Shown in pieces: positions 214-15,534 of a stretch of 64,000 nucleotides of DNA. This stretch comes from an uncultured Eubacteriales bacterium. GTDB lineage: Bacteria; Bacillota; Clostridia; Peptostreptococcales; Anaerovoracaceae. Both the position numbers and the translations under genes were made by a program. Where the stretch lies: the NCBI GenBank assembly GCA_902786355.1, contig CADABZ010000003.1, positions 48,078 to 112,077 on the forward strand. Direction: 5' to 3'. The stretch's first letter is position 1. Every line of letters begins with the position of its first letter. The notes under the pieces were generated by a model. It was not told where the DNA came from. It was given only the letters and a program-made list of their open reading frames with translations, and did not search any database.

Positions 214-3200
214 ATGAGAAAGACGATCAGAATAATAACAGCTGTGATGCTGATAATAATGATGACTGCTACGTCTTTTGCTCTGGCAGAAATTCCTGAG
301 GAGCAGCCACAGAATTCATCATCAGTGACAGAAGTATCAGATGAAGCTGCTGATAAAACTGATGAGAAAGAAAACCCTTCAGAGCTGAGTGAAACAGAAG
401 ATGCGGCTCAGGATGAAGAGGTGATCACGGAGACAGCAGAAGGCAATACCGAAGATGGAGAAGTCTCTGCACAGCCTGAAGAGGCTGAAGCGCCGGCAGA
501 GGAGACAACAGTAACCGAAGAAGCTCCGGCTGAGGAAGCCGGTAAGGTTTCAGTAAAGACTTCATCACCGGTCAGAAAAAGTGCAGCTGCAGTAAAGAGC
601 GCAGGCTCAGGCGAGCCCTTTGCTTTGAAATCTATCTCCTGGAAGATGACATCATACCATGAGTTCTTTGGTGTCGGATATCACCAGAGGAAGATCACCC
701 ATATCAATGATACAGATGTAAATTCCACTAATGACATGAAATCTTCATATGCATTCTGTGTTGAACCTAATGAGGTCGGACCGGAAGGCTGGGATGCGGG
801 TGTAGGAGCCTCATTCAAAGCAGAAGACGGCAAAAACGGGATCAGGATACACACTTTCAATGCAGATAATGCCGGCGATTTCGCGATGATGAGGAAGATG
901 TGCTACTATCTGCCGGGAAGTTATGGCTGGAATTCAAAGACTTCAAAATGGTACAAAACCTACATGAATTCAGTATCAGAAAATGATTTCACTGAATATA
1001 CACTGAGTGCTACGATACTGGCAAAGCAGTGGGCCAAAGACGCAGATGATCCTGAAGGCAATGCAAACTACGGATACAGGAGTCTCAGTGATAAAGGCAA
1101 GGAACTTGTTGATAAGTTCCTCAGGGAGGTGCCGGCTCTGGCCGATCCTCCGGCAGACTTTCTGGCGTTTTATGTAGAGAAGGAAAACACTCAGGACATC
1201 TGGGGAAGTCTGTATGCCGAACCTGAGAGCGGGGAAATCACACTGACCAAGAAGTCGGCATATCCTTCGCTGACAGATGCTCTTCCGGGCAATTACTCTC
1301 TTCAGGGTGCAAAATACTATGTGTACACAGATTCGTCCTGCAAGACAAGAGCAAAGGACCTTTACGATAATGATATAGTTCTCGAAACTGACAAGAAAGG
1401 CAGCGTCAAGGCTGTCGGGGCAGCTGTTGGCGATTACTGGATAAAGGAAGTTTCGGCTTCAAAAGGCTTCAGTCTCGACAAGAACGTATACCATGTCAAG
1501 GTGACTTCAGATAAGACATCTGAAGCAGCTTCTACTGAGCAGCCTGTATATGCATCATTTACCGCGCTGCTGGAAAAACAGAGCGAAGAATACGGATACA
1601 GACGGCTGACAGGCGCTGAGTACACACTCACATACTATGATGTGGATCCTTCAACGAAAGACGTCTCAGGCCTCAAGCCTGCTAAAACCTGGGTGTTTCG
1701 CACAAGGGAGGGGAAAGATCCTGACAGCAATGCTTCTGTAGCCTGCATAGACTTCAGCAAGGACAAGCCTGTGAGCGGCGGAAGCATGTATAAAGCCGGA
1801 GATAATGCTGTAATGCCTCTTGGTGTCTTTACCCTGAAAGAGACAAAAGCACCTAAAGGGCTCGCTGCTGATCCGAATACTTATCTTGGATGCTGCAAAG
1901 CATCAGGCGATTCATCTGCAAATGTGACGATAAATGGCTCCGATACTCTGTATGTGGATTACAGCGGCAGATTCAGGCTGCTTAATACAGAACTGGAGAA
2001 GACCGTAAAGCTTATAATACAGAAAAAAGATGCAGAGACCGGAAAAACTGAGCCGCAGGGACAGGAAAGCGAGTCAAGAAAAGCTGCATATGCATCACTT
2101 GAAGGAGCGGTGTATAAAGTCTATATGAATGATCCTGCGGAGGACGAAGACCCTGAAGTTGGTGAGATGATCACTGACCAAAGCGGAAGAGCGGAGCTGT
2201 CCACTGATAAAAGGACAGGAAAAGGACTTATGCCTGGGATCTACTATATTAAGGAGATAAAGGCATCGCCCGGATATGTTGCGGATTCATTAACTGAGAA
2301 AGAGCAGAAGAACAAGTATCAGGATGGAATGCATATAGTGAAAGCCAGAGCGGATGATGATCCGGATACTTCTGTATGCGAATATACAATTGATTCGATG
2401 GAAGCACCGCATCATACACTGATACACAAGACAGACGTGACGACCGGAAAAGAACTGCCGGGGGCCAAGCTTCAGGTCCTTGACTCAGAGGGGAACATCG
2501 TTGAGGAATGGGTCTCAACTGATAAACCCCACGATATCATCGCTCTTCCTGACGGAAAATACACACTGCGCGAACTTACTGCACCATATGGCTATGAGAT
2601 CAGAGAAGATGCAGTATTTGAAGTAACGGCGGATAAAGTAATCAGTGAAGCAGTGATGAAAAACCAGCCTGTCAATGTGACTACGACTGCAAAGCATGCT
2701 GCAACAGATGCTCACAGCGGAGCAGCGTCAGGAGAGGCAAAGATCACAGATACTGTGAAGATGGAAGGCCTGTGCAAAAACGGGACCTACAGGATAGAAG
2801 GAACCCTTATGGACCGGAGGACAGGTAAGCCTGTAACTGATGAAAAGGGTGAGCCTTTGACGGAAGAAGCAGAATTCGCAGCAGATGCGGAAAATGTATC
2901 AGTTGATCTTCTGTTCGGGTTCGATCAGAAAAAGTTTTCGAAGGGTGCGACTGTGGTCGTATTTGAAAAACTGTACAGGGTCGAGGCTCCTGACGAAGGC
3001 GGGGAGAGGAAAGTCACTGAGATACAGAAGCATGAAGACATCAATAACGAAGATCAGAGCATCCATTACGGAGGTATAGCTTCGACTGAAGCAACAGACA
3101 GAAGGAGCAGTACACACAATATCTCACCGGACAGAGAAACAGTTATTGTAGACCATGTAAAATATAGCAATCTCTCTGTGAAAGACAGCTATATCCTGAC

Positions 3201-3555
3201 CGGAGAGCTATACGATAAAACGACAGGGAAGCTTACGGGCATAAAAGCAACCGGCGAGTTTTCACCGGAAGCTTCAGAAGGACAGACGCAGTTGGAATTC
3301 TGCCTGGATACTTCTGAGCTTCAGGATCATACCCTTGTGGTGTTTGAGAAACTGTACGTCAGGACATCTTCTGAGGACAAAACTGTACTGATAGACACCC
3401 ATGAGAATCCTGACGATAAAGCACAGACTGTGCATGTAGATAAAAGACCGGCAGGACCGAAGACAGGAGATAATACCGTCCTGCGTGCGTATCTGATGCT
3501 CGGTGCTGCGGCACTGTCATCACTGATACTGATGATCAGAAAGAGTCTTGAATGA
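214..3555 (+). CDS. Large cell-wall-anchored adhesin with thioester, SpaA/Cna-B and VaFE domains
   Basis: A protein of 1113 residues. Residues 1-25 form a signal peptide ending ALA, followed by an acidic, Pro/Glu-rich stalk to about residue 130. Residues 140-330 resemble a thioester adhesin domain: Cys182 in AFCVEP and Gln272 in AKQW are the candidate bond partners, which in known members let the protein bind host amines covalently. At least four SpaA/Cna-B-like beta domains follow (starting near residues 340, 451, 599 and 734, each ending in a YxIKE or YTLRE type strand). Two VaFE-type repeats start near 821 and 975. The C-terminus has GPKTGD at about 1081, a hydrophobic segment and a short basic tail, as in sortase substrates, although Gly replaces the first Leu of LPXTG. 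It has a GAGG-type ribosome site. Expected role: a surface adhesin anchored to peptidoglycan. Its stop codon abuts the stop of maf on the other strand. Confidence 0.85.
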   Translation: MRKTIRIITAVMLIIMMTATSFALAEIPEEQPQNSSSVTEVSDEAADKTDEKENPSELSETEDAAQDEEVITETAEGNTEDGEVSAQPEEAEAPAEETTVTEEAPAEEAGKVSVKTSSPVRKSAAAVKSAGSGEPFALKSISWKMTSYHEFFGVGYHQRKITHINDTDVNSTNDMKSSYAFCVEPNEVGPEGWDAGVGASFKAEDGKNGIRIHTFNADNAGDFAMMRKMCYYLPGSYGWNSKTSKWYKTYMNSVSENDFTEYTLSATILAKQWAKDADDPEGNANYGYRSLSDKGKELVDKFLREVPALADPPADFLAFYVEKENTQDIWGSLYAEPESGEITLTKKSAYPSLTDALPGNYSLQGAKYYVYTDSSCKTRAKDLYDNDIVLETDKKGSVKAVGAAVGDYWIKEVSASKGFSLDKNVYHVKVTSDKTSEAASTEQPVYASFTALLEKQSEEYGYRRLTGAEYTLTYYDVDPSTKDVSGLKPAKTWVFRTREGKDPDSNASVACIDFSKDKPVSGGSMYKAGDNAVMPLGVFTLKETKAPKGLAADPNTYLGCCKASGDSSANVTINGSDTLYVDYSGRFRLLNTELEKTVKLIIQKKDAETGKTEPQGQESESRKAAYASLEGAVYKVYMNDPAEDEDPEVGEMITDQSGRAELSTDKRTGKGLMPGIYYIKEIKASPGYVADSLTEKEQKNKYQDGMHIVKARADDDPDTSVCEYTIDSMEAPHHTLIHKTDVTTGKELPGAKLQVLDSEGNIVEEWVSTDKPHDIIALPDGKYTLRELTAPYGYEIREDAVFEVTADKVISEAVMKNQPVNVTTTAKHAATDAHSGAASGEAKITDTVKMEGLCKNGTYRIEGTLMDRRTGKPVTDEKGEPLTEEAEFAADAENVSVDLLFGFDQKKFSKGATVVVFEKLYRVEAPDEGGERKVTEIQKHEDINNEDQSIHYGGIASTEATDRRSSTHNISPDRETVIVDHVKYSNLSVKDSYILTGELYDKTTGKLTGIKATGEFSPEASEGQTQLEFCLDTSELQDHTLVVFEKLYVRTSSEDKTVLIDTHENPDDKAQTVHVDKRPAGPKTGDNTVLRAYLMLGAAALSSLILMIRKSLE

Positions 3556-4125
3556 TTACATATAATCACGGATGAGCGGCTCGATCCTGTAGTACGGAAG
3601 ACCTACTACGTTGTCGTAATCACCCTTGATGTGGTCGATATGTTTGCTGAAATATCCCTGTATCGCATATGAGCCGGCTTTATCGTACGGCTCTTCCATG
3701 GAGATATACTCATAGATATCATCATCAGAATAGTTTTTGCAGTGTACCTCGGTTATATCACTGAGGACACTGCACGAACCCGTGTCAGTATCTATGATAG
3801 CTACGCCAGTCACAACATAGTGGACTGTTCCTCGTATCTTATCGAGCATGCGAAAAGCATCTTCAGCATCTTTCGGCTTGCCCATTATCTGGTCTTTCCA
3901 GACTAATGTGTCGGCGCCGATGATTATATGACCGGGATATTTCTCATGGACAGCTTCATAGCAGGCCATGGCCTTGCGTTTTGCAAGCATTTCAACAGCA
4001 TCTGTCATGCTGATGCCTTCAGGAAGAGTTTCGTCAGTGTCGGCCGGTATGACGATAGCATTGATCCCGTTTTTGCGAAGGATCTCTATTCGTCTCGGTG
4101 ATTTTGATGCAAGAATTATTCTCAT
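3556..4125 (-). CDS. maf: Maf-type nucleoside triphosphate pyrophosphatase
   Basis: A protein of 189 residues, the usual Maf length. It opens with IILASKSPRR, the phosphate-binding SxSPRR signature (Ser7 to Arg12), and has the catalytic region IIGADTLV with Asp72 followed by GKP. Maf proteins hydrolyse non-canonical or modified NTPs (dTTP/UTP in one subfamily, m7GTP in another) and are linked to house-cleaning and septation arrest. The gene is alone on the minus strand, with its stop directly adjacent to the adhesin stop. The subfamily is not assigned here. Confidence 0.93.
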   Translation of the reverse strand: MRIILASKSPRRIEILRKNGINAIVIPADTDETLPEGISMTDAVEMLAKRKAMACYEAVHEKYPGHIIIGADTLVWKDQIMGKPKDAEDAFRMLDKIRGTVHYVVTGVAIIDTDTGSCSVLSDITEVHCKNYSDDDIYEYISMEEPYDKAGSYAIQGYFSKHIDHIKGDYDNVVGLPYYRIEPLIRDYM

Positions 4126-4265
4126 AATCAGTAATATAGGTGAATTTGCCGGTGATATGTGCTATAACAGATTGTGCAGATCATGAAAGATCTGTCTTTC
4201 GTGAAAGATTATAATTGTCAGACCGCTGCGAAGCAACGGCTATTGAAATTTTTACACTTAATGGC

Positions 4266-4294
4266 TTGACTTTATAGTGGACAGTGCATATAAT
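4266..4294 (+). promoter_or_regulatory. Sigma-70 promoter of the infC operon
   Basis: TTGACT (4266-4271), a 17-base spacer and TATAAT (4289-4294) make a near-consensus promoter. Transcription should start near 4301, leaving a leader of about 145 bases before infC. Confidence 0.85.
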
Positions 4295-4300
4295 ATCTGA

Positions 4301-4436
4301 GGTCAAAGCAGAAGTTATCCGCTTCTCGCCTTGCAGACTAGCGTTGGCAGGGCTCAATATAGAGATGATTCTATTGATGCGGATACTTATGTGTCCGCAT
4401 TTTTTATACGTACTGTTCCCCATGGATTATTGGAGG
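4301..4436 (+). promoter_or_regulatory. Structured infC-rpmI-rplT leader, probably an L20-type autoregulatory leader
   Basis: The leader folds into a stem of GCCTTGC (4328-4334) with GCAGGGC (4347-4353), then an intrinsic terminator hairpin (4378-4405), then the GGAGG site (4432-4436). In Bacillus, the same operon is controlled by L20 through premature termination in the leader. Position, gene order and the terminator fit that scheme. The identity with the L20 leader family is inferred, since no alignment was possible. Confidence 0.6.
4378..4405 (+). terminator. Attenuator terminator in the infC leader
   Basis: TGCGGATAC (4378-4386) pairs with GTGTCCGCA (4391-4399) over a TTAT loop, with one G-T pair, and is followed directly by six T (4400-4405). 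It lies between the promoter and infC, so it must act as a regulated stop. Confidence 0.85.
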
Positions 4437-4444
4437 TAAGAACA

Positions 4445-4975
4445 ATTAGTACTAAGGACAATAAACAGACTCAGATCAATGATGAAATCAGAGCATCTGA
4501 AGTTCGTCTTATCAACGAAAAAGGCGAAATGGTAGGCATCGTCAGCATTGACGAGGCTCTGAATCTTGCTGAAGCGGCTGATCTTGACCTTGTCAATATC
4601 TCGCCGAACGCAGTTCCTCCTGTATGCAAGATACTTGACTACGGGAAGTACCGCTATGAACAGCAGAAGAAAGAAAAGACTGCTAAGAAGAATCAGCATG
4701 TGACAGAGATCAAGGAGATCAGACTCAGCGCATCCATCGAGGATCATGATGTCCAGGTCAAGGCAAAGACCGCTACTAAGTTCCTGCAGGACGGAGACAA
4801 GGTAAAGGTCAGTCTGAGATTCAGGGGCAGAGAGCGTGATTACACACAGCTGGGATTTGATGCAATGGCTAAGTTCGCTGATCTGGTATCAGATTACGGC
4901 GTCATCGAGAAGCCTGCCAAGATGGAAGGCCGCAGGATGAACATGTTCCTGGCACCGAAAAAAGATAAAAAGTAA
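4445..4975 (+). CDS. infC: Translation initiation factor IF-3, AUU start codon
   Basis: IF-3 binds the 30S subunit, discriminates against non-cognate start codons and prevents subunit joining. The reading frame contains the classic N-domain QINDEIRASEVRLI, then a lysine-rich linker (EQQKKEKTAKKNQ), then the C-domain (EIRLSASIEDHD, VKVSLRFRGRE, KMEGRRM). The chosen start is ATT at 4445, eight bases after GGAGG (4432-4436), giving 176 residues, the normal length. An in-frame ATG lies upstream at 4331, but it falls inside the leader stem and has no ribosome site. An AUU start is known for infC in other bacteria and allows IF-3 to repress its own translation. First gene of infC-rpmI-rplT. Confidence 0.93.
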   Translation: MSTKDNKQTQINDEIRASEVRLINEKGEMVGIVSIDEALNLAEAADLDLVNISPNAVPPVCKILDYGKYRYEQQKKEKTAKKNQHVTEIKEIRLSASIEDHDVQVKAKTATKFLQDGDKVKVSLRFRGRERDYTQLGFDAMAKFADLVSDYGVIEKPAKMEGRRMNMFLAPKKDKK

Positions 4976-4999
4976 ACAGTTTACATAGGAGGACCCAAA

Positions 5000-5200
5000 A
5001 TGGCTAAGAACAAGATGAAGTCACACAGAGGCGCTATGAAGCGTCTGCACCTTACAGGCTCCGGCAAGGTCAAGAGAAATAAGGCATATAAGAGCCATAT
5101 CCTTACCAAGAAGACAGCCAAGAGGAAGAGAGGCCTTCGCAAGGCTACAACTCTCACAAGTGCAGATCTGAAGCGTATGCTGAGATCAATGGCTAAATAA
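5000..5200 (+). CDS. rpmI: 50S ribosomal protein L35
   Basis: 66 residues, very basic, starting [15 protein letters not shown] and containing the typical [16 protein letters not shown] and [11 protein letters not shown] segments, with ADLKRML near the end. It is a structural protein of the large subunit. An AGGAGG site sits before the ATG. It lies 24 bases after infC and 18 bases before rplT in the standard operon order. Confidence 0.97.
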
Positions 5201-5218
5201 TTCAGGAGGTAATGAACT

Positions 5219-5572
5219 ATGGCAAGAGTTAAGAAGGGCGTTAATGCTCATAAGAGACATAAGAAAATTCTTAAGCAGGCTAAGGGATTCTACGGAAGAA
5301 GAAAGAACACATTCAGAGCTGCTAACCCTGCAGTAATGAGAAGCCTGAGATCTGCATATGCAGGACGTAAGAACAAGAAGAGAGAATACAGAAGACTTTG
5401 GATCGCAAGAATCAATGCTGCTTCCAGAGCTAACGGCATCTCCTACAGCAAGCTCATGAACGGACTTAAGAAGGCCGGCATCGAGATCAACCGCAAGATG
5501 CTCTCCGAGATGGCTATCTATGATGCAGCAGGATTTGCTACACTCTGCGAGACAGCTAAGAAGTACTGCTAA
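5219..5572 (+). CDS. rplT: 50S ribosomal protein L20
   Basis: 117 residues with the L20 hallmarks: [43 protein letters not shown] and a hydrophobic C-terminal helix ([15 protein letters not shown]). L20 is needed early in 50S assembly and, in Firmicutes, represses its own operon through the leader upstream of infC. Preceded by AGGAGG. Last gene of the operon, followed by a strong terminator. Confidence 0.97.
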
Positions 5573-5586
5573 TACGACGATGTAAG

Positions 5587-5624
5587 ATGTGTCAGAAGGG
5601 AGAACCTTTTGACACATTTTTTTT
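5587..5624 (+). terminator. Intrinsic terminator after rplT
   Basis: ATGTGTCA (5587-5594) pairs with TGACACAT (5610-5617), extended inward by AAGG/CCTT, and is followed by eight T ending at 5624. Confidence 0.92.
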
Positions 5625-5646
5625 ACAAGGACCGGAGGTTATCATA

Positions 5647-5856
5647 ATGAGTTACTTCATAAGCCATATAGGGGTCATATTTCTGGCGGCATGCTTCATT
5701 GCCGTCTGCGCAGTGGCATGGTGGTATCTGACAGACAAGAATGCCAGACTCAAAAGACAGCGTGCCGAGGCGCGCAAGGCTGCAGCTGCAGCCGCAGCAG
5801 TCGCAGAGCGCAAAAAAGACGAAAAAGAAAACGGACAGGACCCTGAAGCAGAGTAG
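5647..5856 (+). CDS. Small single-pass membrane protein of unknown function
   Basis: 69 residues starting at the ATG at 5647, eight bases after GGAGG (5634-5638). Residues 7-27 are a strong transmembrane helix (GVIFLAACFIAVCAVAWWYL). The rest is a charged, alanine-rich helix with KRQRAEARKAAAA and an acidic end, so the likely topology is N-out with the tail in the cytoplasm. I do not recognise a family. It sits 14 bases before the beta-helix gene and shares its transcription unit, with a terminator before it and one after the pair. Possible role as a membrane partner of that protein is only inference from the pairing. Confidence 0.7.
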   Translation: MSYFISHIGVIFLAACFIAVCAVAWWYLTDKNARLKRQRAEARKAAAAAAAVAERKKDEKENGQDPEAE

Positions 5857-5870
5857 GAGCGGGCAGAAGT

Positions 5871-7892
5871 ATGAAGATCTATGTAGATGCCAGCGCAGCA
5901 CCGGGCGGCAGCGGTACGCAGGAGGCACCATTCAGAACTATCCAGGCAGCAGCAGATATCGCTGTGCCTGGAGATGATGTTATTGTAATGCCCGGGATCT
6001 ACAGGGAAAATGTCGATCCGAAAAATGCCGGAACCGAGGATGCACGCATAGTCTACCGTTCTGCTCAGCCGCATAAGGCTGTTATCACAGGAGCAGAGGC
6101 CCTGAGCGGATGGAAGAAGGACGGCGGTATCTGGACGGCCAGGGTGAACAACAGCATATTCACTGAGCGTAACCCTTATACAACAAGAGTCAGCGGAGAC
6201 TGGTTCATGGCAGAATTCATCGCCCACACAGGCGATGTGCTGCTCAATGGCAAGTCGATGTATGAAGCTCTGTCTGTATCAGATGTCAGGAAGGGGCAGC
6301 CTTCTGCTGCTTCGTGGGACAGGGATTTCTCTGTCTATCAGTGGTATGCAGAGCAGGACGGAGATGAGACAGTTTTCTATGCGAATTTCCAGGACATGGA
6401 TCCCAACACAGAACATGTCGAGATCACTGTACGCTCAGCGTGTTTTGCTCCTCAGAAGGAAGGCACAGGCTATATAACGCTCAGCGGCTTTACCGTATGC
6501 TGTGCTGCGACCCAGTGGGCTCCACCTACAGCTTTTCAGGAAGGAATGATCGCTCCGCACTGGTCCAGGGGCTGGATCATCGAGGATTGCGAAGTCTATG
6601 AATCCAAATGCAGCGGCATCTCTCTGGGCAAATATAGACAGAAAACCAACGATAATAAATGGCTCAACTGGAAATACAAAGACGGGACACAGACAGAGCG
6701 TGAGTGCATATGTCTGGCGCAGGCAGAAGGATGGTCAAAAGAAACTGTCGGATCGCATATCGTAAGGAGATGCGATATCCATGACTGCGGGCAGACCGGC
6801 ATCGTCGGACATCTCGGCGGAGTCTTTTCACTTATCGAGGACAACCATATCCATCATATCAACAATAAGCAGAATCTTGCCGGCGCTGAGATCGGCGGGA
6901 TAAAAATGCATGCTGCTATAGATACGGTGTTCAGGCACAATCACATCCACCACTGCACACGCGGCCTGTGGCTTGACTGGCAGGCACAGGGGACAAGGGT
7001 GACTCAGAACCTGATGCATGACAATACCATCCCTGTGATGGAGGAGGCACCGGAAAAACCGGACCTGGCGATAACACAGGCACTGGGCGAGGACATTTTT
7101 GTCGAAGTGTCACACGGGCCTACGCTCATAGATAACAATATCCTGCTTTCCGACCGCGCTGTTAAGATCGCATGCCAGGGTGTGGCAGCAGTCCACAACA
7201 TCATCGCCGGAGGGCTTGTTTCAGTTGGAATGGGCACCGATAACGGAGCTCTTACACTGGCATCTCCAAGGTATACTCCGTATCATCTCCCTCACAGGAC
7301 GGAAGTTGCCGGATTTATGACATTCCTGCACGGTGATGACAGATTCTACAACAACATATTCATCCAGAAGCCGGTAAGACCTGTGATGAAAATGCTGATG
7401 GATACGATGAGCGGGGACCGGAATGCCTGGGATGACTGCAATGTTATGGCAGGAACATTCAGATTCGACGGATATATGACCTTTGAGGAATGGGACAGGG
7501 AATTCGAAGGCTACTGCGGCATGGGTTCACCTGCGAGCGACCGCTACTATATTCCGCTGCCGGTATGGGCGGAAGGAAACATATACTGTAACGGTGCAAG
7601 GCCATGGGAAAAAGAAAAAGGCGCAGTGGTCGACACTGAGCATGAGATAACGATCCGCCTTGAGGAACACAGCGACGGATGGCATCTTTTTACCAACCTT
7701 GCAGATGCTGTCACACAGGATGCGCCTCATATGATCGATACAGATACTCTGGGCATGGCCTTTGAACCTGAGCAGAGATTCGAAGATCCGGACGGAAGCC
7801 CGATAACTTTCGATACCGATTACTTCGGGAACAGAAGAGAGACCGTCACCGCAGGACCGTTCGCGATTCTTGAAAAACACTATATGTTGTGA
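5871..7892 (+). CDS. Right-handed parallel beta-helix repeat protein, probable carbohydrate-active enzyme
   Basis: 673 residues without a signal peptide. The N-terminus (MKIYVDASAAPGGSGT, then PFRTIQAAADIAVPGDDV and MPGIYREN) is the typical entry into a right-handed beta-helix as in pectate-lyase-like and glycosidase folds. The middle has several turns with the pattern of short beta strands and His/Asn-rich loops (HIVRRCDIHDCGQTGI, LIEDNHIHHINN, VFRHNHIHHC, LIDNNILLSD). Aromatic and acidic residues in loops (WLDWQAQG, EDCEVYESKCSG) would suit sugar binding. The likely substrate is an oligosaccharide handled in the cytosol, but the enzyme class cannot be fixed. An AGGAG-like site precedes the ATG. 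Confidence 0.8.
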   Translation: MKIYVDASAAPGGSGTQEAPFRTIQAAADIAVPGDDVIVMPGIYRENVDPKNAGTEDARIVYRSAQPHKAVITGAEALSGWKKDGGIWTARVNNSIFTERNPYTTRVSGDWFMAEFIAHTGDVLLNGKSMYEALSVSDVRKGQPSAASWDRDFSVYQWYAEQDGDETVFYANFQDMDPNTEHVEITVRSACFAPQKEGTGYITLSGFTVCCAATQWAPPTAFQEGMIAPHWSRGWIIEDCEVYESKCSGISLGKYRQKTNDNKWLNWKYKDGTQTERECICLAQAEGWSKETVGSHIVRRCDIHDCGQTGIVGHLGGVFSLIEDNHIHHINNKQNLAGAEIGGIKMHAAIDTVFRHNHIHHCTRGLWLDWQAQGTRVTQNLMHDNTIPVMEEAPEKPDLAITQALGEDIFVEVSHGPTLIDNNILLSDRAVKIACQGVAAVHNIIAGGLVSVGMGTDNGALTLASPRYTPYHLPHRTEVAGFMTFLHGDDRFYNNIFIQKPVRPVMKMLMDTMSGDRNAWDDCNVMAGTFRFDGYMTFEEWDREFEGYCGMGSPASDRYYIPLPVWAEGNIYCNGARPWEKEKGAVVDTEHEITIRLEEHSDGWHLFTNLADAVTQDAPHMIDTDTLGMAFEPEQRFEDPDGSPITFDTDYFGNRRETVTAGPFAILEKHYML

Positions 7893-7920
7893 TATTCTGT
7901 AAAAGGAATATCACTTTTTT
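7889..7920 (+). terminator. Intrinsic terminator after the beta-helix gene
   Basis: GTGATATTC (7889-7897) pairs with GAATATCAC (7906-7914), followed by six T. The left arm overlaps the stop codon of the gene. Confidence 0.9.
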
Positions 7921-7947
7921 GATTATCGCACTATCCGGAAATACATC
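7919..7947 (+). promoter_or_regulatory. Possible promoter of nrdR
   Basis: TTGATT (7919-7924), 17 bases, TACATC (7942-7947). The -10 is weak, but the site falls just after the previous terminator and before nrdR, where a promoter is needed. Confidence 0.3.
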
Positions 7948-7983
7948 ATTAAGTGCTGAAATGCGAGATGGAGGTTGTCAGTT

Positions 7984-8430
7984 ATGAAATGCCCGTACTG
8001 CAATTATGAGGATACCAAAGTCGTAGATTCGAGACCGGTTGAAGATGGGCTTGCTACAAGAAGAAGGAGAGAATGTGCAAAGTGCCACAGGAGGTTTACC
8101 ACATTCGAGAAGATCGAGAATTCACTCCTTGTAGTAGTCAAGAAAGACGGGACGCGTGAGAGCTTTGATAAGAACAAGATCATCAACGGCATCATGAAGG
8201 CATGTCAGAAGACAAAGGTAACTTACGATGATGTCCAGAAGATCGCTGACAATATCGAAAGAGGACTCAGCAATACGATGGAGAAAGAGATCCAGTCAAC
8301 GATGATCGGAAGACTCATCATGGACGAGCTCAAGAGGATAGATCAGGTAGCTTACGTGCGTTTTGCATCTGTATATCAGGAATTCAAGAGCGTTGATACA
8401 TTCATAGACGAGATCAACAAGCTCAGATAG
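7984..8430 (+). CDS. nrdR: Transcriptional repressor NrdR of ribonucleotide reductase genes
   Basis: 148 residues from the ATG at 7984, nine bases after GGAGG; a TTG three codons upstream is in frame but too close to that site. The N-terminus is a zinc ribbon: Cys3, Cys6 (CPYC), Cys31 and Cys34 (CAKC), with VVDSRPVEDGLATRRRREC between them. Residues from about 46 form an ATP-cone (VVKKDGTRESFDKNKIINGI, then KACQKT). NrdR senses ATP/dATP and binds NrdR boxes at ribonucleotide reductase promoters. No NrdR box was recognised here. Confidence 0.96.
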   Translation: MKCPYCNYEDTKVVDSRPVEDGLATRRRRECAKCHRRFTTFEKIENSLLVVVKKDGTRESFDKNKIINGIMKACQKTKVTYDDVQKIADNIERGLSNTMEKEIQSTMIGRLIMDELKRIDQVAYVRFASVYQEFKSVDTFIDEINKLR

Positions 8431-8486
8431 GATGCGCTTTCGCACAGAGATATCAGTACACAGGAAGAACAGAGGAACATACTGAA

Positions 8487-9158
8487 ATGCTTAGAGTAGC
8501 AATTGACGGTCCGGGAGGCACAGGCAAAAGCTCCATAGCCAAAGCCATCGCATCCTTATTCGGGCTTGAATACATAGATACAGGAGCGATGTACAGATCG
8601 ATGGGTCTCAAAGCGCTCAGGAAAGGCGTGTCTCCGGATGATGAAGAGGCCGTTAAGAAGATGCTTGAAGACACCACGCTCGATTTCCGTGACAATCACA
8701 TGTATCTGGACGGAGAAGATGTCGGAGGCCTTATAAGGACTAACGAGATCTCCATGGCAGCATCGAATATATCAAAGCTGCCGTGCGTCAGAGCCAAGGC
8801 AGATGAGCTCAGCAAGCACCTTGCCGCTACCAGAGACGTGGTCATGGAGGGACGTGACATCACGACTGTCGTTATTCCGGATGCCGAGGTCAAGATATTC
8901 ATGACAGCTGCACCGGAGATAAGAGCTGAGAGAAGATACAGACAGCTGCTGGAAGCAGGCAAACCGGCAGACTATGATCAGATCCTAGAGGAGATTCAGA
9001 AGAGAGACTATCAGGATTCGCACAGAGAACTCAATCCGCTCAGGCAGGCTGAGGATGCCGAATTCCTCGATACATCTGAAATGGACATAGATCAGGTGAT
9101 CAAAGCTGTATCAGATATCATAACCGCAAAGACCGGAGTCAGACCGGCAGAAGTCTGA
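8487..9158 (+). CDS. cmk: Cytidylate kinase
   Basis: 223 residues. A P-loop GPGGTGKSS lies at residues 8-16, followed by DTGAMYR, the nucleotide-binding GRDITTVV, and RAERRYRQL in the lid. The enzyme phosphorylates CMP and dCMP using ATP. An AGAGGAA site lies before the ATG. It follows nrdR by 56 bases with no terminator between, so the two genes of nucleotide metabolism may be co-transcribed. Confidence 0.96.
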   Translation: MLRVAIDGPGGTGKSSIAKAIASLFGLEYIDTGAMYRSMGLKALRKGVSPDDEEAVKKMLEDTTLDFRDNHMYLDGEDVGGLIRTNEISMAASNISKLPCVRAKADELSKHLAATRDVVMEGRDITTVVIPDAEVKIFMTAAPEIRAERRYRQLLEAGKPADYDQILEEIQKRDYQDSHRELNPLRQAEDAEFLDTSEMDIDQVIKAVSDIITAKTGVRPAEV

Positions 9159-9213
9159 TTTCTGCAGATAATCATTCAACTTCAGACAGACTGCATCAAT
9201 AATTCACAGAGTA

Positions 9214-9245
9214 TTCAGGCCTCGCTTCAGTGAGCGGGGCCTGAA
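9214..9245 (+). repeat. Stable 13-bp hairpin before radC, no U-tract
   Basis: TTCAGGCCTCGCT (9214-9226) pairs with AGCGGGGCCTGAA (9233-9245) with one G-T pair. It lies between cmk and radC. The following bases are ATATGATATC, not a T run, so it is not a standard intrinsic terminator. Confidence 0.6.
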
Positions 9246-9288
9246 ATATGATATCATCAAAATGTGTGATTCCCGGAAAGGGAAAAAG

Positions 9289-9972
9289 ATGCAGATAAAA
9301 TCAATGCCCGAAAACGAGAGACCCCAGGAAAAACTGCTTTTCGCAGGCCCGGGAGCTCTCAGCAACGCAGAGCTTCTGGCTCTCATAATCAGAACAGGCA
9401 CGGATAAGCTGTCAGCTCTTCAGCTTGCAGAAGAAGTGATCTCTGCTGTTTCAGAAGATGCAGGAGGCCTTGCTTCTGCTGATGTGCGGGAGCTTATGAA
9501 TATCCGCGGGATAGGTGCGGCCAAGGCATGCTCGGTTGCAGCATCAGTTGAACTCTCAAAGCGCCTGCTTAGCGGATGCGTAGCAGAGAGAGCTGCCGGC
9601 CCGGCAACTGCACACGATGTGTATGAGCTTCTGTGTAAGGATATGATGAGTGAGAAGAGGGAGCTTTTCGTATCACTTCATCTCAACACGAAGATGCAGA
9701 TCGAGTCGAAGCATATCGTTTCGATAGGATGCCTGGACTCAGCACCGGTGCATCCGAGAGAGGTCTTCAGACCTGCAGTGAGAAGCGGTGCGGCGGCAGT
9801 CATAGTCGCTCATAATCATCCGAGCGGTGATCCTGAGCCGAGCAAAGAAGACAAAGCCGTCACAGAGAGGCTTCTCAAAGCATCATCCGTTATGGGGATA
9901 AAGCTTCTCGACCATATCATTATCGGCCATGGCAGATATGTAAGCCTGAGAGAAGCAGGCCTTATTCCATGA
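9289..9972 (+). CDS. radC: RadC-family JAMM/MPN domain protein
   Basis: 227 residues from the ATG at 9289; an earlier ATG at 9262 would add nine residues that do not fit the family start (MPENERPQEKLL). Helix-hairpin-helix-like segment LMNIRGIGAAKACSVAA near residue 75, and the metal-binding motif AHNHPSGDPEPSKED around residues 174-187. RadC was named for a DNA repair phenotype later attributed to another gene. Its biochemical role remains unsettled, with links to competence and recombination. Preceded by a stable hairpin and followed by murE 86 bases later. Confidence 0.93.
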   Translation: MQIKSMPENERPQEKLLFAGPGALSNAELLALIIRTGTDKLSALQLAEEVISAVSEDAGGLASADVRELMNIRGIGAAKACSVAASVELSKRLLSGCVAERAAGPATAHDVYELLCKDMMSEKRELFVSLHLNTKMQIESKHIVSIGCLDSAPVHPREVFRPAVRSGAAAVIVAHNHPSGDPEPSKEDKAVTERLLKASSVMGIKLLDHIIIGHGRYVSLREAGLIP

Positions 9973-10058: not shown

Positions 10059-11678
10059 ATGAGTATAAGAACAGAAAGCATCAAAGTGATCGATTTTATC
10101 GATGCCCTGGGACTTGCAGGCATCCTTACATCAGTGGACGGCGAATCAGCTTGCTCATCAGTTATATCCTACGTTACAGATCCTGATAAAGCTGCAAGAG
10201 CCGGCAGAGAAGTCACCGGCGTCACCTACAATTCACGCGAAGCAGCACCCGGATCGCTTTTCGTATGCAAGGGGGCGCATTTCAAGGAAAAATATCTTGA
10301 GGATGCAATAGAAGCAGGTGCGGTCTGCTACGTCAGGGAAGACCCGAAAGGAAGCGGCGGACTTACATGCAGCATAACAGAAGATACCAGCTTCGAAAAA
10401 AGGCCGGGCTGCATCGGCATAACTGTCAGCGATATCCGAAAGGCTATGCCGGTAATAGCGGAGACATTCTACGGAAGGCTCTCAGATGAGCTCTGCATGA
10501 TAGGCATAACAGGAACCAAGGGCAAATCCACCACTGCCTATTTCGTCCGCTATATCCTTGACGACTATATGGCTGCAACCGGAGGCAAGAGGACTGCTAT
10601 CTGTTCAGGTATAGACAACTATGACGGAGTCATCGAAGAAGAATCACATCTGACGACTCCTGAGATCATGGAGCTGTATCAGCACATGAACAACGCTCTT
10701 TCAAGCGGGATCGGATACATGACTATGGAAGTTTCCAGCCAGGCTCTCAAGTATGACAGAGTCGACGGTATCATGTTCGACGCAGGAGCATTTCTCAATA
10801 TAGGATCAGATCATATCAGTGCTATCGAGCACCCGGATTTCAATGATTATCTTGAATCCAAGCTGAGACTGTTCTCGCATTGCCGCAGGGCCTGCATCAA
10901 TCTTGACTGCGAGGAGCAGGAGAGGATACGCAAGGCATCTGCAGACTGCCCGGATGTCATAACATTCAGCCAGAAGGACAGCAGCGCGAACGTATACGCG
11001 TATGATGTGGTTTCGAAAGAAGGCAAGGTAAGCCTGCATATCAGACTCAGGGACGTCAAGGGCGCGGAAGATTTTGATGAAGAGTTCACACTCGGTACAT
11101 TCGGGACTATCAATGTCGAGAATGCTCTTGCAGCAGTAGCGCTCACAGCCCTTGCCGGTGTTCCTGCAGAATATATGAAGTCAGGACTTGCCAAGGCCAA
11201 GTCTCCGGGCAGAATGGAAGTGTTCTACAGTGAAGACGGCAAGCGCATAGCGATAGTCGATTACGCACACAACAAGCTCAGCTATGAGAGATTCTTTGAA
11301 ACTATCAAAGATGAGTTCCCGGGCAAAAAAATGATGATCGTCTTCGGCTGCCCGGGCGGCAAGGCTTTTGCAAGACGTGAGGAGCTCGGAACTATCGCGG
11401 GCCGCAGCTGCTCATATACGATAGTTACGGAAGAAGATTACGGCGAAGAAGATGTCAACAAGATCTGCCGCGAGATAGGAAAGTTCGTTGCCGCTGCCGG
11501 AGGAAAATACGAGATCATCACAGACAGAGTCGAGGCTATCAAAAAGGCCATTACTCTGATGGATGATGACACGATTCTCTTCCTGCCGGGCAAAGGGCGC
11601 GAGACAAGAGAAAAGCGCGGCATAGAGTATATCGATACTCCTTCGGATGCAGACGTCGTGATCGAGTACATGAAATAA
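10059..11678 (+). CDS. murE: MurE-type UDP-MurNAc-tripeptide synthetase, not of the meso-DAP type
   Basis: 539 residues in the Mur ligase order: an N-terminal UDP-binding domain (residues 1-140, VTYNSREAAPGSLFVCKGA), the ATP loop GITGTKGKST at about 149-158, the central domain with TTPEIMELYQ and MEVSSQAL, and the C-terminal domain (SPGRMEVF, VDYAHN, FLPGKGRETRE). MurE adds the third amino acid of the stem peptide. The C-terminal specificity loop, DNPR in enzymes that use meso-diaminopimelate, reads EEDYGEED near residue 458. That argues for lysine, ornithine or another residue. Good ribosome site AGAGGTAAAG. The next gene, 27 bases on, is a FemAB bridge enzyme, which also fits a side-chain amine acceptor. 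Confidence 0.88.
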   Translation: MSIRTESIKVIDFIDALGLAGILTSVDGESACSSVISYVTDPDKAARAGREVTGVTYNSREAAPGSLFVCKGAHFKEKYLEDAIEAGAVCYVREDPKGSGGLTCSITEDTSFEKRPGCIGITVSDIRKAMPVIAETFYGRLSDELCMIGITGTKGKSTTAYFVRYILDDYMAATGGKRTAICSGIDNYDGVIEEESHLTTPEIMELYQHMNNALSSGIGYMTMEVSSQALKYDRVDGIMFDAGAFLNIGSDHISAIEHPDFNDYLESKLRLFSHCRRACINLDCEEQERIRKASADCPDVITFSQKDSSANVYAYDVVSKEGKVSLHIRLRDVKGAEDFDEEFTLGTFGTINVENALAAVALTALAGVPAEYMKSGLAKAKSPGRMEVFYSEDGKRIAIVDYAHNKLSYERFFETIKDEFPGKKMMIVFGCPGGKAFARREELGTIAGRSCSYTIVTEEDYGEEDVNKICREIGKFVAAAGGKYEIITDRVEAIKKAITLMDDDTILFLPGKGRETREKRGIEYIDTPSDADVVIEYMK

Positions 11679-11705
11679 ACGTTTCCGGAAGGACATTTGG
11701 ATCAG

Positions 11706-13004
11706 ATGAACAATTATACTTTTGATGAAAATCTAAGCAGGGAAGAATTCGGCTCGCTCCGGGATAATAAAAGCGTCAAGACACATTTTCTCGGTTCATA
11801 CGCATGGGGCGAAGTATCAGGTGAGGGCAACTGGGTGCCTTACTATACCGGCGTCAGGAAAGACGGCGAGATAGTCGCAACGGCTCTTATCCTGCAGAAA
11901 AGGCTGGTCGCAGGCTATTCATACTGCTATATACCAAGAGGCTTCACTATGGACTGGAGCGACACAGAGCTCCTGAGATACATGACAGCTGCTGTTAAGG
12001 ATTTCTGCCGCAGACATAAGTCTATCTTCTTCAAGATAGACCCGGATATCAGATACCATGTGATAGATGACAATGGCAGACCGGTTGACGGAGAGAATAA
12101 TGAGAGACTGGTCAGAGAGCTTGAGGATCAGGGATATGAGCATCTGCCGCTGACATATTTCTTTGACAGCGAGCAGCCGAGATTCACATTCAGGATCAGG
12201 ACAGACAGGGATATCAAAGACATCCGCAGCGGATATGACAAGATCGTAAAGCGCAGACTCAGGCAGGCTGCAGCTGACGGAGTAGAGATCGTCGAGGGCG
12301 GCAGGGAAGATGTCGATGAGTTCGTCAGACTCATGACCATGACTGAACAGAGACAGGGCTTCTTCTCACATCATCCTGACTATTATCAGAAGTTCTACGA
12401 TATTCTCAGCAAAGAGGATATGGCAGGCCTGTATTTCGCAAAGATAGATATTCCTGCGCTCACAGCCAGACTCATTAAGGAAGAAGAGGATCTTGCCGCC
12501 GAAAAGACTTCACTGGAGTCTTCTGAAGGTCCTAAGAACAAAAAGACCGAGGGAAGGATCAAGAGCATCAATGAAAGACTCGGAGCAATATCACGCCAGC
12601 TTGATTCACTTAAGGACAGTCCGCAGAAGGTCGTCACTGCATCAGCTCAGCTGCTCGTCACATACGGAGATAAAGTATGGACCCTTTATGCAGGAAATGA
12701 CATGGAATACGGAAAGTTCTACAGCAATTATGCGATGTTTGACTATTGCGTTGAGACAGCTCAGAAGACAGGCGCGCAGTTCCTGGACGCTTTCGGGACA
12801 GTCGGAAAGCCGGGCGTCGATGCACAGCTTGACGGACTTCACGAGTTCAAAAAGCGCTGGGGCGGTGAATATACTGAATTCATAGGTGAGTTCAATTACA
12901 TAACCAACAGACCTGTGTACCTCGCATACAGCATACTCATCCCGATACGCAGAGCGATTGTAAGCAGAAGACTTCTGAAGGAAGTCGCATCCGGAAACAG
13001 ATAA
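11706..13004 (+). CDS. FemAB-family aminoacyltransferase for the peptidoglycan bridge
   Basis: 432 residues from the ATG at 11706; an in-frame TTG at 11697 lies only three bases behind the GGAAGGA site. Two GNAT-like halves are recognisable, with the first holding ALILQKRLVAGYSYCYIPRG and FFKIDPD and the second VWTLYAGNDMEYGKFYSNY and KFKKRWGG-like FKKRWGGEY. A charged helical hairpin of about 50 residues (EEEDLAAEKTSLE to ISRQLDSLKDS) corresponds to the coiled-coil arm of FemA/FemX/MurM. Family members transfer amino acids from aminoacyl-tRNA to the side-chain amine of the stem peptide. Located directly after murE, it probably builds an interpeptide bridge. The amino acid is unknown. Confidence 0.88.
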   Translation: MNNYTFDENLSREEFGSLRDNKSVKTHFLGSYAWGEVSGEGNWVPYYTGVRKDGEIVATALILQKRLVAGYSYCYIPRGFTMDWSDTELLRYMTAAVKDFCRRHKSIFFKIDPDIRYHVIDDNGRPVDGENNERLVRELEDQGYEHLPLTYFFDSEQPRFTFRIRTDRDIKDIRSGYDKIVKRRLRQAAADGVEIVEGGREDVDEFVRLMTMTEQRQGFFSHHPDYYQKFYDILSKEDMAGLYFAKIDIPALTARLIKEEEDLAAEKTSLESSEGPKNKKTEGRIKSINERLGAISRQLDSLKDSPQKVVTASAQLLVTYGDKVWTLYAGNDMEYGKFYSNYAMFDYCVETAQKTGAQFLDAFGTVGKPGVDAQLDGLHEFKKRWGGEYTEFIGEFNYITNRPVYLAYSILIPIRRAIVSRRLLKEVASGNR

Positions 13005-13024: not shown

Positions 13025-13072
13025 AAAAGACCTCCATTTTGCCGGCGTTGACCGGCGAAAGGGAGGTCTTTT
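13025..13072. terminator. Bidirectional terminator between the FemAB gene and the fusion ligase gene
   Basis: AAAAGACCTCC (13025-13035) pairs with GGAGGTCTTTT (13062-13072), with an inner GCCGG/CCGGC stem. A-rich on the left and T-rich on the right, so it can act on both strands between the two convergent genes. Confidence 0.85.
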
Positions 13073-13108: not shown

Positions 13109-15502
13109 TCACTGATCTTCTTTCTCTGTATAGTACCTGCGGTAATTGCGTATGCTTCTCGCATCCAGCTTCAGATCGTGAATGAGACGCTTCGGATGCT
13201 TTTCACCGGCGTTTCTGAATGTTCCGCCGTATCTGCCCTGACGCACGAGCTCAAGAGCCCTGGATCTCATTTCCTTATCTTTAATGTACTTTCTGACTAT
13301 GCTCAGCGGCACATCAGCCCAGAGGACTTCGTCATAGGATCTCTCGGTCCCTGATCCGGCATTCAGTATGACATCCTCAGCCACACATTTTGCCAGATTA
13401 TGGCCTGCAAGAGTCACATAATAGCTGCTGCGTCCCATTCGAGGGTTGAAGTCAAACACCTTGAAGGTGCCGTCGCGCCTGTCGTATTTGAGATCCACAT
13501 TGAAGTATCCGAAATAAGGAACTGCAGATACGAGCTTTTCTACTGTGTCATATACGCTGTCGTCGCCTGATGCGAGGATGACGGTATAGTTTCCGATCGC
13601 CATAGGATAGTAATCCTCGAGCAGAGGCTGTCCCATCGAGAGAAGAGCAGCCGTGCCGTCTGTGCGGATGTATCCGTTGACGACTCGCATATTATCGTCA
13701 CCTCCCGGGATGAACTCCTGTATGAGCATCGCACCGCTGTATCCGGCATCATATGTTGAGGCTGCCGCTGCACTGAGCTCTTCCGGCGAGTTGATGATGA
13801 ATGCTTTCTTCTGGCCTTCAAAAGGATGAGCGTTGTAATCATCAGCATCGTCCGGCTTGAGGACAAGCGGATATCCGAAAGGAAGCTCCGGAAGAGATGC
13901 ATCACGGATGACGACCGTCTTCGGATACGGGATCCCGGCTTTTTCGCATATGCTGTAGAATTTTACCTTGGAATTGACAGCATCTACCGCCTCATAATCA
14001 GGGCATACCGATACATAGACAGGGTCGAGTCTGTCACGGCATTTTGACAGAAGCCTGGTATAGCTGTCTCCGCATGAGAGGAGCAGAGCCCTGCGTCCGC
14101 CGAACATAGGAGCGGCATCGTTGAGAACGGAGACAAAAGTCTCAGGTTCAGTGAAATCAGGGGTGCAGTGCACTTCGATGAAGGCTGAATGTGCAGTGTC
14201 GCTGAGAGGATAGTGGCCGAATGCATAGCTGCTGATGCCGTATGCCTCATGAAATGCTCTTGCCATGTTGTAGGCGTTGGTCTCTGTTCCGAGGAGAACA
14301 GGAACAAACCTTGAGCCTGTGTCTGTCATATCAGCGATCCTTTCGATGTCTGCCATTTCATGTCTTGTAGGAAGCAGCACTATACCTTCAGATATCCTGG
14401 ATGCTTCAGGGCAGGAAGCTGCTGCCTCATCGCATCTGAACACTTCTCTGTCAGTAACACCCGGGAAAAGCAGGGGACGGCCCCATGTGCTGCTGTAAAA
14501 ACCGCTTCTGTTAAGCATTGAGGAGAGACTCTCAGCCTCGGCCTCGCTGCCGGCTATCAGAGGGAACCACAGAAGAGGTTGGTCTGTATCAAGAGCAGCC
14601 TTCGGGACTTCGATCCCGGCACCTGAGCTCCTGAAATAATCACCGTAATACTTCACTGCCCTGGATCTCAGCTCTTCATTCTGATCGAGATCAGACATAG
14701 CAGATATGACGCGGGCTGCAGTCACTGAGCCTGGTACTGTAGGGTCAAGGAGAGTATCTCCGCTGAGTTCTTCTGCTGAGATCCCCGGAATGAAAGCTCT
14801 TCTGTCTGTCCAGCGCTGCCTCAGAGGCCGCCTTATCTTCATAGGCAGGTGATTGAGTATGCGGAATCTCGTGAGGTACTGAGGGACGGCTTTCTCCACC
14901 CGTGTATCTGCCGCAGGCAGTGACAGGAAGCTCTGGACGAGAGCTTCTCTGAGGACCTGATCTGACATTTCAGGAGATATCCATACGGCTCCGCCGAAAA
15001 GTGAATCGAGCATTTTCTCAAGACCGAATGAATGCACGGAAATATCCGCAGCCGGAGCGCCGTCAGGTGTCCTTGCCATGCGGCAGACACACTGCGCACA
15101 GTCCTCGATGACTACGGCGCCTGCACTGCGTGCTTTTGCCGCTGAGCGGTTGAATGAATCGTTATCTATAATGCCGAATGTATGCTGGATGACTACAGCG
15201 CGGGTGCGGCTGTCAGCTGAAAGCTTCTCAGGATCAAGCGAGAGCGTGGCAGCTGAGATATCCTGGTATTTTATGTCGAGATGCCCTGCGAGAACAGCCT
15301 CAGGTACCGTAGAGCATGTAAAAGGCTGTATAATGACATCTCCTAATCCGGAATGCCTTCTGATCTGTTCAAATACAGTCTGCATCGCTTCTCTGGCACG
15401 GAAGGTGAGAAACCATTCATCAGGATCTGTGCCGGTGCGCCTGGCAAGAAGGATCCTGAGATCTCTGCATTCTGATGTTTCATTATTTCTTATATCCTGC
15501 AT
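13109..15502 (-). CDS. Aminotransferase-like (DegT/DnrJ fold) domain fused to an ATP-grasp amine ligase
   Basis: 797 residues from the ATG at 15502, seven bases after GGAGG (15514-15510); longer frames upstream cover this ribosome site. Residues 1-385 follow the DegT/DnrJ/EryC1 aminotransferase pattern: VIIQPFTCSTVPEAVL, VIEDCAQ (Glu-Asp 133-134, Gln137) and SFGLEK with Lys163 at the spacing of the PLP lysine, followed by GGAV. From about residue 400 an ATP-grasp ligase begins (VPVLLGTETNAYNMARAFHE), with the ATP lysine region YPLVLKPDD near 545, QEFIPGGDDNMR near 596 and the Mg-binding FDFNPRMG near 683-690. The second half resembles carboxylate-amine ligases such as D-aspartate ligase of enterococci. 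The fusion and the placement tail to tail with murE and FemAB suggest a role in peptidoglycan bridge or surface glycan synthesis. The substrate is unknown. Confidence 0.75.
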   Translation of the reverse strand: MQDIRNNETSECRDLRILLARRTGTDPDEWFLTFRAREAMQTVFEQIRRHSGLGDVIIQPFTCSTVPEAVLAGHLDIKYQDISAATLSLDPEKLSADSRTRAVVIQHTFGIIDNDSFNRSAAKARSAGAVVIEDCAQCVCRMARTPDGAPAADISVHSFGLEKMLDSLFGGAVWISPEMSDQVLREALVQSFLSLPAADTRVEKAVPQYLTRFRILNHLPMKIRRPLRQRWTDRRAFIPGISAEELSGDTLLDPTVPGSVTAARVISAMSDLDQNEELRSRAVKYYGDYFRSSGAGIEVPKAALDTDQPLLWFPLIAGSEAEAESLSSMLNRSGFYSSTWGRPLLFPGVTDREVFRCDEAAASCPEASRISEGIVLLPTRHEMADIERIADMTDTGSRFVPVLLGTETNAYNMARAFHEAYGISSYAFGHYPLSDTAHSAFIEVHCTPDFTEPETFVSVLNDAAPMFGGRRALLLSCGDSYTRLLSKCRDRLDPVYVSVCPDYEAVDAVNSKVKFYSICEKAGIPYPKTVVIRDASLPELPFGYPLVLKPDDADDYNAHPFEGQKKAFIINSPEELSAAAASTYDAGYSGAMLIQEFIPGGDDNMRVVNGYIRTDGTAALLSMGQPLLEDYYPMAIGNYTVILASGDDSVYDTVEKLVSAVPYFGYFNVDLKYDRRDGTFKVFDFNPRMGRSSYYVTLAGHNLAKCVAEDVILNAGSGTERSYDEVLWADVPLSIVRKYIKDKEMRSRALELVRQGRYGGTFRNAGEKHPKRLIHDLKLDARSIRNYRRYYTEKEDQ

Positions 15503-15534
15503 CATCGTTCCTCCGTCAGTAAATGTATGGGAAA

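Follow-up and report, generated by a model that had tools for sequence, protein, structure and literature searches.

Can an aminotransferase and a peptidoglycan-branch ligase, joined in one protein, serve the same cell-wall side chain? The question is raised by a gene on the minus strand (13109..15502) of a 64,000-nucleotide stretch, here called the window, of contig CADABZ010000003.1 from an uncultured Eubacteriales bacterium (GCA_902786355.1). Its single open reading frame, preceded by a ribosome-binding-site-like GGAGGAA read from the sequence (15508..15514, minus strand), encodes a predicted protein of 797 amino acids in which an N-terminal pyridoxal phosphate (PLP) aminotransferase domain of the DegT/DnrJ/EryC1/StrS fold (residues 1-396; 14315..15502, minus strand) is followed by a C-terminal ATP-grasp ligase domain resembling Asl, the D-aspartate ligase (residues 397-797; 13112..14314, minus strand). 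The fusion, noticed in a preliminary description of the window, is confirmed here, and the interpretation offered there, synthesis of an amino compound and its ligation to peptidoglycan or a surface glycan, is partly supported: it is somewhat probable that the protein acts on peptidoglycan side chains as a bifunctional enzyme, the fusion coupling transamination to ligation.

Recurrence and Integrity of the Fused Gene

Full-length fusions were recovered in 6 of the 47 genomes of the genus (G000, which is the window's own, G008, G011, G015, G019, and G027), the other five being 59-76% identical to the protein of the window, and a seventh was found in another genus (g39) of the same family as one frame of 865 amino acids (G158). 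Since full-length fused genes recur in this way, a sequencing or assembly join, the weakness against which the preliminary description had warned, is ruled out. The two domains are both genuine: the N-terminal half matched the PF01041 profile (DegT/DnrJ/EryC1/StrS aminotransferase) with 47.5 bits against a curated cut-off of 19.8, and an AlphaFold model of the whole protein had both folds intact, with a mean predicted local distance difference test score (pLDDT) of 91.9. The literature searched contained no report of a fusion of an aminotransferase with an Asl-type ligase, and the available part of PMC2922099 describes none, in agreement with the earlier statement that no described enzyme of this architecture was known.

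Relationships of the Ligase Half

The C-terminal half was compared with 22 canonical and three lactobacillus rows, and 62 of the 73 positions conserved in these were also the majority residue of the seven fused rows. Identity to the three lactobacillus ligases was 35.5-37.1% over approximately 400 amino acids, all three being homologues (beside a racemase in L. curvatus, beside asnB in L. crispatus, and beside neither in L. fermentum). Foldseek returned matches to the ATP-grasp ligases 3vot and 4wd3. In a midpoint-rooted tree of 60 rows with several long branches, from which two duplicate fused rows had been dropped beforehand, the seven fused ligases formed one clade (support 100/100) within a branch of 18 rows (98/92); of the 11 unfused rows there, 8 are linked to femAB. 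In the largest clade, 23 of the 26 rows had murE, an Asp/Glu racemase gene, or both in reach, and a group of five rows from murT-gatD operons stood apart. Because of this placement, the lactobacillus comparators and the conserved positions, the assignment of the half as an Asl-type, D-aspartate-ligase-like ATP-grasp ligase is well supported, as the preliminary description had proposed.

The gene context of the family points in the same direction. Among 48 unfused loci, which were the best search matches and not a random sample and did not include five distant rows kept in the tree, murE was in reach in 22, an Asp/Glu racemase gene in 17, femAB in 9, and murT in 5; at least 39 had one or more of these, a lower bound because many loci had just 1.5 kb of flank. 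In G024, murE, femAB, ligase, and racemase genes are consecutive. According to PMC4155827, AslA is an ATP-grasp enzyme that adds D-Asp to lysine and, in L. lactis, shares an operon with racD; AsnH amidates the D-Asp. The donor of the fused ligase is thus likely to be D-Asp or a similar amino acid, and the acceptor would be a stem-peptide amine.

The ligase is much more widespread than the fusion. At 1e-20, the profile of the fused protein matched 107 of 296 genomes of the taxonomic family, with the aminotransferase half covered in 5 of the 107 by the listed match ranges, and the ligase profile matched 27 of 398 genomes of the phylum. All six phage matches and the best 15 of 61 plasmid matches covered the ligase half only, and the viral contigs yielded no confirmed relative of the aminotransferase half; a mobile or phage origin of the fused gene was therefore rejected.

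Two further observations concern ligases of this family. The record LT985590.1, labelled Bacteriophage sp. and unannotated, carries at 2724-3875 a ligase 40.7% identical to the fused ligase half over query residues 398-774, which may represent either phage-borne branch remodelling or host DNA. In G000 (L022, G000:C3:12000-30000; 4038-9690), an unfused ligase paralogue of Asl type comes after a tandem murT-gatD-murT-gatD array, and the same arrangement was seen in G008, G015, G019, and G027, hence in five of the six fused genomes of the genus, and not in the incomplete G011; the gatD labels were partly assigned by eye. The arrangement hints at a second ligation connected with the amidation of D-isoglutamate.

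Features of the Aminotransferase Half

In DegT enzymes, a lysine forms the Schiff base with PLP, an aspartate contacts the pyridine nitrogen, and a serine lies five residues before the lysine. The corresponding D134, S158, and K163 were invariant in all 16 aligned rows, a second phylum included; the lysine and the aspartate align with solved DegT enzymes, and all three residues align with a generic DegT protein. The codon of Lys163, the expected Schiff-base lysine in S158-F-G-x-E-K163 as placed by alignment, is at 15014..15016 (minus strand), and the lysine spacing noted earlier is retained. Together with the overall aminotransferase fold modelled for the N-terminal half, these residues indicate a complete DegT-type fold, for which PLP use and catalytic activity are predicted. 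The half belongs to a narrow, rare subfamily with the stretches TFRAREAM, QPFTCSTV, and HSFGxEK.

Besides the seven fusions, the searches made found this subfamily solely in G026, as a separate gene convergent with a murE-femAB-ligase operon, and in some Saccharibacteria, as a separate gene of about 30-34% identity. At 1e-25, the aminotransferase profile matched 1 of the 391 genomes sampled from the class, the window's own. A scan of genome contigs with two peptide patterns found at least 15 loci, and in one family of Saccharibacteria a full-length match was present in 6 of 151 sampled genomes, a seventh (G1240) holding a partial, distant relative. All 12 close loci mapped in Saccharibacteria lie between a presumed tsaD and a presumed valS, both assigned by eye. 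In one of these organisms (G1219), a FemAB gene follows 20 bp downstream of the aminotransferase gene, and two more lie upstream on the opposite strand.

A run of genes in G1240 (L191, 6321-11385) comprises a Mur ligase (PF02875 only), an alpha/beta hydrolase, the distant DegT relative, and two FemAB genes, and is a candidate peptidoglycan-branch cluster.

The possibility was considered that the protein is an ordinary Asl-type peptidoglycan ligase whose PLP-fold half is catalytically inactive and serves as a scaffold in dimerisation or docking. Such a scaffold would fit the faster evolution of the aminotransferase half, whose dN/dS was 0.095-0.235 (five of six pairs computable) as compared with 0.039-0.11 (six of six) for the ligase half, values that are low in both halves, with dS near saturation, a point that also weakens the bifunctional interpretation. 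It would fit the generic DegT stretch GGNAKMNE, which in the fused rows aligns, weakly, with diverged sequence; the Asn-containing stretch of the partner-subunit loop is one that we take to be GyNyR. It would also fit a helical insert (residues 200-252), for which pLDDT over the block 201-250 was 83-93 in the whole-protein model and 38-52 for the half folded alone; the insert may dock on the ligase, or the contrast may only reflect the different alignments used. Against a scaffold stand the invariance of the three residues across phyla and the retention of a separate aminotransferase gene in G026 and the Saccharibacteria, and we regard this alternative as rather unlikely.

Genomic Neighborhood and Co-occurrence With femAB

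Genomic context analyses revealed that the fused gene is convergent with murE (10059..11678, plus strand) and femAB (11697..13004, plus strand; PF02388, 253.9 bits), the latter of a family of aminoacyl-tRNA-dependent transferases of peptidoglycan branches. The bidirectional terminator proposed earlier between femAB and the fused gene was recovered as a terminator-like hairpin at 13025..13072 on both strands, with folding energies of -36.4 and -32.2 kcal/mol (z -7.0 and -8.1). The gene is likewise contiguous with murE-femAB in G011, hence in two of the seven fusions, and G027 would fit across a contig gap; the adjacency emphasized in the preliminary description is thus not a conserved feature of the fusion. 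In three loci, the fused gene adjoins a gene judged by eye to encode a GH3-like glycosidase, away from murE-femAB (L039, 7841-10303; L040, 9136-11685; L041, 8698-11181).

The MurE of the window has E-D-Y-G in place of DNPR. PMC3829189 describes DNPR as the motif of MurE that binds meso-diaminopimelate (mDAP), and as not the sole determinant. Among 22 rows, the motif was EEDxG in 17, EDDGG in L050, AEDPG in L110, MEDPG in L136, DNPR in L114, and DNPK in L144. A MurE of non-diaminopimelate (non-DAP) type, lacking DNPR, speaks for a lysine-like third residue of the stem peptide; as dapF is present in the genome of the window, this indication comes from the MurE motif and not from the pathway. A second, dedicated MurE was ruled out, since this murE was the only one of 11 matches in the genome to exceed the cut-off of the MurE family.

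Presence of femAB in the genome is more conserved than adjacency to murE-femAB. Among the 47 genomes of the genus, many of which are incomplete metagenome-assembled genomes, femAB was present in 14, the ligase family in 12, and the aminotransferase in 7; femAB accompanied the ligase in 12 of 12 genomes (Fisher 1.7e-9) and the aminotransferase in 7 of 7 (Fisher 5e-5), both values not being corrected for relatedness. In g39, the femAB of G158 is paired with a racemase gene, and no femAB was seen in two sister genomes with unfused ligases, which are 79% and 82% complete. This co-occurrence, together with the grouping of the ligase, upholds the peptidoglycan setting assumed for the fused gene.

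The window also carries a ribosomal protein L20 leader (RF00558) at 4300-4412, which scored 59.3 bits where the gathering threshold is 58.7.

Proposed Function and Alternatives

If the protein is bifunctional, the ligase half would activate the carboxylate of an amino acid, probably a D-amino acid, and join it to a stem-peptide amine, most likely that on the side chain of residue 3, the residue added by the adjacent non-DAP-type MurE. The DegT-type half would aminate a small precursor of that branch, which could be the amino acid used by the ligase or an acceptor extended by FemAB and the ligase, and the fusion would couple the two steps. Activity, PLP use, substrates, order of steps, and coupling are all predictions from sequence and model.

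Several points weigh against this proposal. The model of the fused protein had a predicted template modelling score (pTM) of 0.70, and the arrangement of the two domains is therefore unsure. In Saccharibacteria, 11 of the 12 close aminotransferase loci do not adjoin FemAB, and FemAB is near-universal (8 of 8 genomes with the aminotransferase and 18 of 20 without), so that its presence discriminates nothing there. A strong ligase homologue was found in none of five Saccharibacteria with the aminotransferase, with one weak match (6e-9), and the two halves therefore need not act together.

Two further adverse points, that the solved relatives are mostly sugar or cyclitol enzymes among the matches listed and that four of the seven fused genes (G008, G015, G019, and G158) lie away from murE-femAB, would also suit a role in a surface glycan, in which an amine placed on a nucleotide sugar by the DegT half would be acylated with an amino acid by the ATP-grasp half. 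Such a role is nevertheless unlikely: no glycosyltransferase or sugar-nucleotide cluster was recognised beside the fused genes in open reading frame translations inspected by eye, with no family search of the neighbours and with the GH3-like gene in three genomes, the ligase half groups with murE-, racemase-, and femAB-linked ligases, and every aminotransferase carrier of the genus has femAB.

Last among the adverse points, no Asp/Glu racemase gene was seen beside any of the seven fused genes, the locus of G027 being cut at the contig end, whereas such a gene is within reach in 17 of the 48 unfused loci. This contrast would be expected if the aminotransferase half replaced an aspartate racemase and made the D-amino acid for the ligase. 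Five of the six fused genomes of the genus hold a racemase elsewhere at E < 1e-60 (the exception, G011, is 71% complete), and that of G158 is the one paired with femAB; no amino acid racemase of DegT type is known to us. At the same threshold, a racemase was present in 32 of the 47 genomes of the genus: it accompanied the ligase family in 11 of 12 cases and was also found in 21 of the 35 genomes lacking that family, so that its presence in fused genomes says little. Replacement of the racemase is weakened by these results and appears very unlikely.

A bifunctional side-chain enzyme thus remains our preferred explanation. A broader proposal is more doubtful and is offered tentatively: that a PLP transaminase step dedicated to side chains defines a new peptidoglycan branch with an undescribed amino constituent, carried out by one protein in Mogibacterium-like gut bacteria and by a separate, once FemAB-linked, protein in Saccharibacteria.

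Comparison With Known Systems

According to PMC2922099, interpeptide branches come either from Fem transferases, which draw on aminoacyl-tRNA, or from ATP-grasp ligases, which draw on D-amino acids; a racemase supplies the latter enzymes (PMC4155827). A transaminase fused to a branch ligase would bring in a third kind of input, namely an amino constituent produced specifically for this use, and would fit the presence of that aminotransferase subfamily next to FemAB in a second phylum. The fusion points to a possible, so far undescribed route by which a single protein makes a cell-wall side chain. To our knowledge, little has been measured of the peptidoglycan chemistry of uncultured gut Clostridia and Saccharibacteria, and the fused gene thus offers a direct, testable prediction.

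Like AslA and Aslfm, which act with RacD in lactic acid bacteria and Enterococcus faecium, the C-terminal half is an ATP-grasp ligase with relatives linked to murE and racemases, and the fused ligases are 34-40% identical to the racemase-adjacent L. curvatus homologue, a value measured on lactobacillus homologues and not on proven AslA or Aslfm; unlike them, the fused protein has an N-terminal aminotransferase and no adjacent racemase. Compared with the DegT enzymes BtrR (2c7t), CalS13 (4zas), TlmJ (5uid), and WbpE (3nu7), the aminotransferase half forms a distinct subfamily, and the protein differs in the insert 200-252, the fusion to a ligase, and the FemAB setting. It shares the cell-wall branch setting with FemAB and FemX, femAB being its neighbour in the window; these transferases take their amino acid from aminoacyl-tRNA (PMC2922099), whereas the fused enzyme would start from the free amino acid and ATP.
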